Positions 6,514 to 8,271 of a stretch of 20,037 nucleotides of DNA are shown one piece after another. Numbering within the stretch: the first letter of the stretch is position 1; each line of letters begins with the position of its first letter. The translations under genes were made by a program, and so were the position numbers. Source of the stretch: a virus. The stretch covers positions 1 through 20,037 of the IMG/VR virus record IMGVR_UViG_3300003690_000129. The stretch is one strand, 5' to 3'. Below the pieces are notes generated by a model that was not told the DNA's origin, searched no databases, and saw only the letters and a list, made by a program, of their open reading frames with translations.

Positions 6514-7113
6514 ATGCCATTCTGGTCAACCGATTTCGGTGCTGATACCGAATTAAAAGATCCCAAAAGAAAATTTAGATTTAAAGTCGAATTTCATGGG
6601 ATTCAATCCTCACAAGGTGCTGGAGGTGCTCTCTTGTGGTATGCTAAATCCGTAGCAAAACCTTCTTTTCAAATTGCAGCCGCCGAACACAAATATCTTA
6701 ATCATACTTTTTATTATCCCGGCTCTGTTACATGGCAGGATGTTTCCCTAACCCTGGTAGATCCGGTTAACCCAGACATGACAGCAACGCTGGCAGATAT
6801 CATTGAGTTATCGGGATATTCCATTCCTACGACAGCCAACTCGCTCAATACAATGTCAAAGGCTTCAGCAGCCGGCGCACTTGGAAGTGTGATGATTACT
6901 CAAATTGATTCTAAGGGAGAGCCGTTGGAAACCTGGACGTTGTGGAACGCTTTTATCATTAACTTGAAGTTTGGAGATCTTGCATATGGCGAAGACGATT
7001 TAACTGAACTTACCGTAGATTTGAAATATGATTGGGCAAGCGTTGTGACGAGCAATGGCGGTGGATCTGCAGCAGTTAAAGGCGGCGGTGATGGACCCTT
7101 CTTTAACGTCTAA
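6514..7113 (+). CDS. 19: Tail tube protein (T4 gp19-like)
   Basis: The 199-aa product starts at ATG 6514 with AGGAG (6500-6504). Residues about 18-70 carry RKFRFKVEFHGI, WYAKSVAKPSFQIAA and FYYPGSVTWQDVSLTLVDP, the 'F.V...g......SV..P.......e......F.YPG...W..v.lt..D' pattern of gp19 tube subunits. Later MITQIDSKGEPLETWTLWNA and then LTELTVDLKYDW correspond to the second beta-sandwich half. T4 gp19 is 163 aa; the surplus is a helical alanine/serine insert near residues 100-125 and a glycine-rich tail (residues about 178-199). The protein stacks as hexameric rings inside the sheath and conducts DNA. It follows the sheath gene as in T4. The identity is secure. Confidence 0.92.
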   Translation: MPFWSTDFGADTELKDPKRKFRFKVEFHGIQSSQGAGGALLWYAKSVAKPSFQIAAAEHKYLNHTFYYPGSVTWQDVSLTLVDPVNPDMTATLADIIELSGYSIPTTANSLNTMSKASAAGALGSVMITQIDSKGEPLETWTLWNAFIINLKFGDLAYGEDDLTELTVDLKYDWASVVTSNGGGSAAVKGGGDGPFFNV

Positions 7114-7154: not shown

Positions 7155-8015
7155 TTGTCACGAAATAAAAACCGCGTTGGGGGCGCCGCAACACAAGCAG
7201 CGAGCCCCCCACCCACAGTACTTCAAGAAGAGGCCCCAAATAGCGGGTTTTCTTTCGTTGTACCTACTGAATTTGTAGAACTCCCATCTAAAGGGCGCTT
7301 CTACGCCGAAGATCATCCTTTACATGGAGAAGAAAGCATAGAGATTAAGCAAATGACCGCTAAAGAAGAGGACATGCTTACATCTGCTACGTTGCTCCGC
7401 AAAGGGGTGGCTTTAGATCGAGTAATCCGCAGTTTGATTGTGGATAAACGAATCAACCCCGATAATCTATTGGTGGGAGATCGCAATGCTATTATTCTGT
7501 GCGCTAGAGTATCAGGATATGGGAACGAATACGATACAAAAGTAAGTTGTCCTGCCTGCGGCACCACTACAGAATATAGTTTTGATTTAAATGAGGTGTC
7601 CCTTTATACTGGCGCCGACTTGGCAGAGCGAGATATCATAGACAATCAAAACGGAACCTTTGATGTTGTGCTGCCACGAACTAATGTGACGGCTACTTTT
7701 CGGCTCTTAACCGGAGCAGATGAAAAGAGCTTCACTAATGCTGTACAGGCAGATCGCAAGAAAAAGAGCTACGAAAAAAATGTTACTCGACAATTGAGCA
7801 ACATGGTCGTAGCAGTGAATAATGATGATTCTGCTGAAGCAATTCAATATCTTGTTGACAACATTCCTTCAATAGATTCGCGCCGCTTGCGCTTGGCTTA
7901 TCGTACCGCATCCCCGAATGTCGATCTCACCCAATATTATGTCTGTGACGAGTGTAATTATGAAGCGGACATGGAGGTTCCGCTGTCTGCGGACTTTTTT
8001 TGGCCTGACCGATAA
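7155..8015 (+). CDS. gp26-like baseplate/tail assembly protein with two CxxC motifs (chaperone first frame)
   Basis: The start is most likely TTG 7155, placed 6 nt after AGAGG (7144-7148); no ATG lies nearby, and the product is 286 aa. After a disordered Pro/Ala-rich N-terminus comes FVVPTEFVELPSKGRFY and IEIKQMTAKEEDMLTS, the opening typical of the T4 gp26-like baseplate hub family. Two cysteine pairs, CPAC (C132, C135) and CDEC (C264, C267), could bind one zinc ion as a split zinc ribbon. The protein ends ADFFWPDR. The stop is reached only if ribosomes stay in frame across a run of seven T (7995-8001); a +1 slip there joins it to the 83-aa frame that follows. Lying between the tube and the tape-measure gene, it is in the classic place of tail assembly chaperones. 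Family call is fairly good; the chaperone role is inferred. Confidence 0.7.
   Translation: MSRNKNRVGGAATQAASPPPTVLQEEAPNSGFSFVVPTEFVELPSKGRFYAEDHPLHGEESIEIKQMTAKEEDMLTSATLLRKGVALDRVIRSLIVDKRINPDNLLVGDRNAIILCARVSGYGNEYDTKVSCPACGTTTEYSFDLNEVSLYTGADLAERDIIDNQNGTFDVVLPRTNVTATFRLLTGADEKSFTNAVQADRKKKSYEKNVTRQLSNMVVAVNNDDSAEAIQYLVDNIPSIDSRRLRLAYRTASPNVDLTQYYVCDECNYEADMEVPLSADFFWPDR
7995..8001 (+). promoter_or_regulatory. Candidate +1 ribosomal frameshift site (T7 run)
   Basis: Read in the gp26-like frame the run is TTT TTT TGG, followed by CCT GAC CGA and stop TAA at 8013-8015. If the Phe tRNA on TTT 7998-8000 slips one base forward it still pairs fully with TTT 7999-8001. The next codon is then GGC, which opens the frame of the 83-aa downstream product without a stop, giving a fusion of 371 aa. 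A pairwise -1 slip would not reach that frame. This is inference from sequence only. Confidence 0.5.
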
Positions 8016-8019
8016 TTAC

Positions 8020-8271
8020 ATGGAGCATATCTATGAGCAGTTCTTCTTTCTCAAATATTGGGGAGGATGGGCTTTCTCAGAAGCTTATAATTTGCCCGTA
8101 GGTTTGCGAGAATGGTTTGTAAAGCGTCTTATTAAGCAGATCGAGGACGAGAACGAAGCGCAAGAACGCGCCTCCAAGGGACAGGGAGGGGGTGTTCAAA
8201 CACTCGGATCTCATAATCAACCCTCTATGCCCTCACACATGATGAACATGAATAGCTCCGACAAATCATAA
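8020..8271 (+). CDS. Small tail assembly protein / chaperone second frame
   Basis: Counted from ATG 8020 the product is 83 aa, beginning MEHIYEQFFFLKYWGGWAFS and continuing EAYNLPVGLREWF and KRLIKQIEDENEAQERASKG; the tail is Gly-, Asn- and Met-rich. The first 55 residues look like a compact helical domain, in keeping with small proteins found after gp26-like genes and with the T part of chaperone pairs. ATG 8020 has no Shine-Dalgarno sequence (the upstream bases are a T run and GGCCTGACCGATAATTAC). Independent initiation is therefore unlikely; translation would come from +1 frameshifting at 7995-8001 or from reinitiation, since the upstream stop is 4 nt before the ATG. In the fused form the product would read FF-GLTDNYMEHIYEQ. 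I do not know a precise T4 homologue. Confidence 0.6.
   Translation: MEHIYEQFFFLKYWGGWAFSEAYNLPVGLREWFVKRLIKQIEDENEAQERASKGQGGGVQTLGSHNQPSMPSHMMNMNSSDKS

Follow-up and report, generated by a model that had tools for sequence, protein, structure and literature searches.

In phage lambda, a short tail assembly chaperone (TAC), gpG, and a long, frameshifted form, gpGT, are encoded just before the tape measure gene, the long form arising by a −1 shift. Tail chaperones of T4-like phages, some frameshifted and some encoded by separate genes, have also been published (Vladimirov et al., 2022, as cited in PMC10274946 and PMC12846349); in T4 itself gp26 (TAC-N) and gp51 (TAC-NC) are two separate genes, and, consistent with this, we find a −1 site, U_UUU_UUC, in seven classical T4-like phages (S-PM2, P-SSM2, LG08, AS-yj, CZ01, Mendera and X1). 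Here we analyse a stretch of viral DNA of 20,037 nucleotides (IMG/VR record IMGVR_UViG_3300003690_000129, positions 1 to 20,037; hereafter the window), in which a gp26-like gene is overlapped at its end by an open frame in the +1 register. The comparative evidence makes it likely that a +1 ribosomal slip on UUU, within a run of seven T (T7), yields both TAC-N and TAC-NC forms of a chaperone from this locus. The locus resembles that of lambda in the short and long products encoded just before the tape measure gene, and differs in that the shift would be +1. With T4-like gp26/gp51 it shares a TAC-N of family PF12322, the place before the tape measure gene and a homologous TAC-C, and with the frameshifted T4-like chaperones the position of the shift, at the same Phe-Phe at the end of TAC-N; unlike T4 with its two genes, and unlike the −1 phages, it would use a +1 step at UUU_Y.

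An earlier note, made from the letters of the window alone, had pointed to T7 near the end of the gp26-like gene and to an open +1 frame. Both are present: the gp26-like frame ends in GAC TTT TTT TGG CCT GAC CGA TAA, with T7 at 7995-8001, and the open +1 frame spans 7918 to 8271. The features of the locus are as follows.

6514 to 7113, + strand: tail tube gene (phrog_4542, 9e-23), directly 5' of the gp26-like gene
7155 to 8015, + strand: gp26-like gene, with a TTG start and GAGGTG 5' of the start; zero-frame product TAC-N, 286 aa
7973 to 7977, + strand: GGAGG, Shine-Dalgarno (SD)-like, possible stimulator, 17 nt 5' of the first slip codon
7980 to 7992, + strand: 5' hairpin CCGC-TGTCT-GCGG, with 2 nt between it and the slip codons
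7995 to 8001, + strand: putative slip site TTTTTTT, the slip codon being 7995-7997 or 7998-8000
8002 to 8271, + strand: +1-frame extension, predicted TAC-C domain, 89 aa (coding 8002-8268, stop 8269-8271)
8013 to 8015, + strand: zero-frame stop TAA, 6 codons past the start of the first slip codon
8344 to 10968, + strand: tape measure protein gene (phrog_167, 3.4e-14), directly 3'

The second part would have 89 aa if entered by the slip and 83 aa if begun at ATG 8020, and the predicted TAC-NC has 371 aa, comprising residues 1-282 of the first frame and the 89-aa extension. A GGAG at 8022-8025 with good spacing was considered as an SD sequence and set aside, since it serves ATG 8033 in the third frame, which is only 22 codons long.

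Scanning viral contigs brought up 80 loci of 99-61% identity, and extra scans with queries from Microcystis phage Mel-JY01, an uncultured jumbo phage and Flavobacterium phage immuto added three more groups with roughly 30-38% identity to the window; an initial search of bacterial genomes with the protein from the window gave no match. The first set comprises the 266 loci having a complete gp26 end. A second set, from an alignment query, drew on 91 more loci of 65-34% identity, of which 89 were kept after one truncated locus and one duplicate were omitted; it partly overlaps the first, with at least three contigs (L300, L301 and L302) common to both. The window clade holds 81 loci with 57 different sequences around the slip site, and 47 nonredundant genes were used for codon analysis, in all of which the TTG start at window position 7155, with its strong GAGGTG ribosome site, is invariant.

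The same arrangement, a +1 frame with an in-frame UUU-Y, is found in 261 of the 266 loci of the first set and in 89/89 of the second. Elsewhere in gp26, 5% of 8-codon stretches contain a TTT with T or C after it, as compared with 261/261 at the +1 loci, and in all of these loci in both sets (261/261 and 89/89) the P-site tRNA could re-pair in the +1 frame. The forward step of the Phe-tRNA by one base had been proposed for the window in the earlier note, and the comparison with relatives that it recommended finds both the T run and the relation of the frames kept in homologous loci. The recurrence of the arrangement in many separate contigs rules out a sequencing error at T7. A stop in the +1 frame lies a single codon 5' of the slip codons in 28 loci, where a shift can therefore only take place at this site; the zero-frame stop follows 5-8 codons from the first slip codon across the first set. 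A further in-frame occurrence of the four-letter word TTTT lies at residue 32.

The window clade has TTT TTT TGG or TTC TTT TGG as its slip codons, with no exception. Over all loci the commonest are TTT TTT TGG CCT, and TTT CTT TGG, TTC TTT TGG, TTT CTA TGG and rarer variants also occur, among them CTT TTT TGG in three loci. These variants bear on a −2 ribosomal frameshift, which would also lead into the +1 frame but add one residue to the product; T7 permits −2 re-pairing of the Phe-tRNA, and phage Mu uses such a shift (PMC5009743). A −2 step would, however, place tRNA-Phe on UCU in TTC TTT TGG and tRNA-Leu on UUC in TTT CTA TGG, both mismatched, while the arrangement is kept, and we find this explanation barely credible.

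Purifying selection acts on the +1 frame, which evolves as a protein, with a ratio of nonsynonymous to synonymous differences (pN/pS) of 0.145 in the window clade and of 0.42 and 0.32 in two other groups. One rival explanation is a second gene with its own initiation, from ATG 8020 or by re-initiation past the stop at 8015; the ATG sits 4 nt past the stop, near enough for coupled re-initiation, two relatives (L184 and L189) have such a separate open reading frame (ORF), and short separate ORFs appear in public annotations of related phages. Against this, the ATG is ATA or ATT in 6/57 close relatives, 112/258 loci have no ATG, GTG or TTG within the first 25 codons of the second frame, and the conserved residues GLT-EY are encoded 5' of ATG 8020. 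As the earlier note had remarked, no SD-like sequence is seen 5' of this ATG, and a second-frame start codon with an SD-like 4-mer is present in 4/259 loci. The unconserved ATG, the frequent lack of start codons, the conserved residues before the ATG and the pN/pS values together argue for recoding rather than a second gene. Independent initiation would, moreover, leave unexplained the frozen codons upstream of the slip site described below, and we consider it distinctly improbable.

In the 47 window-clade genes, 98 gp26 codons are conserved in amino acid yet synonymously free, and the only ones among them that are synonymously invariant or nearly so are the start codon and a GAG, a CCG, a GCG and a TTT, these four all lying at most 10 codons from the slip. 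The GAG, which is part of GGAGG, is kept in 47/47 genes, against 39% of Glu codons gene-wide, and CCG and GCG in 46/47 each, against 20% and 19% elsewhere in the gene. GGAGG is present in 94/113 unique upstream sequences, and a strong SD-like 6-mer in 100% of sequences as opposed to 45% of synonymous permutations. The CCGC/GCGG stem is found in 98% of window-clade sequences and in 10% of synonymous permutations. Both in the window's clade and in some others, synonymously frozen codons immediately 5' of the slip make up a hairpin that ends 2-4 nt from it, and other lineages have unrelated stems at the same place (GACATCC/GGATGTC, TACCG/CGGTA and CGCATCC/GGATGCG). In the second set, 72% of sequences exceed a hairpin threshold that 13% of permutations reach, and the stem is kept in 27/48 diverged window-like sequences, compared with 16.6 when the 3' arms are shuffled (0/2000, with relatedness ignored). 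Neither the frozen codons nor the 5' hairpin was mentioned in the earlier note. A downstream stimulatory structure was also considered and rejected as unconvincing, its energy being merely ~1.2-1.4 kcal/mol below that of dinucleotide shuffles.

A hairpin directly before the run is the exact signature of transcriptional slippage, which is therefore the strongest rival: RNA polymerase, aided by the nascent hairpin, would drop one U from T7, and normal translation of the shortened transcript would give the fusion. The hairpin stands 2-4 nt before the run, a transcript one base short gives exactly the +1 frame, a precedent in Roseiflexus IS630 with a 5'-adjacent stem loop at T5C5 is described (PMC5009743), and T runs of seven or more make E. 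coli RNA polymerase slip (PMC6260861). The same polymerase, however, makes insertions threefold over deletions (PMC6260861), and the run is not kept in all members: it is broken to 6, 4 or 3 T in 52/184 nonredundant sites, all of which keep UUU-Y. Two of the broken runs, TTTCTATTC in L001 and TTCTTTTGG in clade C, both retain strong hairpins. The interrupted runs TTCTTTTGG, TTTCTATGG and TTTCTATTC thus disfavour polymerase slippage as well as the −2 shift, and we judge slippage by the polymerase unlikely. Ribosomal +1 slippage is preferred because UUU-Y is the sole re-pairing rule valid at every site; in bacteria UUU-Y is a particularly shift-prone +1 tetranucleotide (PMC5009743).

In the mechanism that we propose, the majority of ribosomes would stop at 8015 and release the 286-aa TAC-N, while a minority would slip +1 with tRNA-Phe (anticodon GAA) on UUU within T7; this tRNA would pair anew with the UUU that overlaps the first (a UUC in some relatives), and GGC CUG ACC and the following codons would then be read in the +1 frame to 8271. 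The slipped product would be the 371-aa TAC-NC ending in a gp51-type TAC-C domain. In the window clade, the hairpin and GGAGG would probably make the forward step more frequent, by re-forming behind the ribosome. If the two forms act as G and GT do in lambda, TAC-N would cover the tape measure protein, and tail tube subunits would be recruited by TAC-C.

Several observations weigh against this mechanism. There is no obvious cause for a ribosome pause, the A-site codon being UGG and not a stop, as the earlier note had observed, and the exact slip codon must vary by lineage (TTC TTT T as against TTT CTA T). The hairpin is not universal: its signal is near null in subclades B2 and D, and it is absent in 21/113 window-like sequences in a two-register test. 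Within the closest clade there are no compensatory stem changes, and the stem is broken singly in two loci. A two-part chaperone made by a +1 shift, as the earlier note had suggested, is nevertheless what the comparative data favour most.

The UUU_Y site invites comparison with described +1 systems. The bacterial release factor 2 gene prfB (CUU_U, with an SD sequence 3 nt upstream) has in common with it a +1 P-site slip, U as the fourth base and an upstream SD-like sequence; prfB, however, has a stop at the A site, whereas here the codon is UGG and GGAGG lies 17 nt before the first slip codon with the hairpin between. The Yersinia YopN-TyeA site, UUU_Ynn, follows the same tetranucleotide rule and needs no stop, but the genes are unrelated, and the passage of PMC5009743 that describes it does not mention a conserved 5' hairpin. 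In Listeria phage PSA cps/tsh and SPP1 17.1, +1 frameshifts likewise occur in phage structural genes, but at proline CCC sites mostly beside a stop, and in capsid and tail tube genes rather than chaperones; the shift in the SPP1 17.5 chaperone is −1.

The identity of the product is indicated by position and by profile comparison. The gp26-like protein matches PF12322 (T4_baseplate; 5e-17, 62.8 bits against a cut-off of 24.5) and phrog_150 (baseplate hub; 1.8e-20), and its gene lies directly before the tape measure gene (phrog_167), as expected of a tail chaperone. In profile comparisons, the +1 TAC-C is related to the −1 TAC-C of S-PM2, P-SSM2 and Vibrio phage CZ01 (9.5e-7, hhalign probability 95.9), and the latter in turn to the T4 gp51 C-terminus (6.9e-9), these E-values referring to tiny databases of 1-9 sequences; the direct comparison of the +1 TAC-C with T4 gp51 is not significant (0.045). 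By way of these intermediates, the C-terminal part qualifies as a homologue of the gp51 C-terminus. The AlphaFold model of TAC-N (predicted local distance difference test score, pLDDT, 84) has as its best, weak matches among solved structures the HK97 tail assembly chaperone 2ob9 (Z 5.2, Foldseek E 0.2) and YqbN 3klu (Z 5.0), which we take to be a tail chaperone or chaperone-like. The TAC-C model has three helices and resembles a cyanophage gp51 model; no solved structure matching either part by sequence was found. Judged by sequence, the locus would encode a two-part tail assembly chaperone of the T4 gp26/gp51 type, and TAC-N is a better name for its first part than the baseplate protein of the earlier note. 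The second part (window 8002-8271) also has a weak match, below cut-off, to DUF6760 (PF20546), a family for which our literature search found no paper and which may also comprise chaperone C-terminal parts.

The five exceptions in the first set are three jumbo-phage loci together with L184 and L189. L184 and L189, which are nested within the +1 clade of the tree, have lost UUU-Y (TTC TTG TAT and TTC CTT TGG) and have a separate second ORF with its own ATG just past the gp26 stop; they can be regarded as a natural experiment in frameshift loss. Pseudomonas phage Paride (L009) and Agrobacterium phage Atu_ph07 (L010) have a −1 site, T_TTT_TTC, in the gp26-like gene and lie on the +1 side of the tree, and the direction of the shift has therefore probably switched. 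In the jumbo phage LR756511.1 (L005) the C-terminal tail of the gp26-like protein is longer, and the ATG of the second part overlaps the gp26 stop.

The earlier note knew of no description of such a case for T4-type baseplate proteins. Frameshifted T4-like chaperones are in fact published, but we found no description in the literature of the +1 direction in this family, Vladimirov et al. (2022) being represented by its title and by citing papers. We put forward tentatively, at a little less than an even chance, the combined proposal of a widely conserved natural +1 shift in a T4-type chaperone, a hairpin and GGAGG pulling the ribosome forward at UUU_Y, and a change of direction, from −1 to +1 or the reverse, at one and the same codon position in related phages. 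Most described shifts of this kind go backwards; here the shift would go forward, with unusually well conserved RNA signals. The short and long chaperone pair appears to be kept across deeply diverged T4-type tails, the recoding problem having at least three solutions (−1, +1 and separate genes), and the hundreds of relatives offer a large natural collection of putative stop-less +1 sites with a candidate 5' stimulator. In public annotations of such phages the second chaperone part is absent or miscalled, appearing as a separate short hypothetical ORF or being omitted (L002 3734-3970, L003 3833-3943, L004 3809-3928 and L008).
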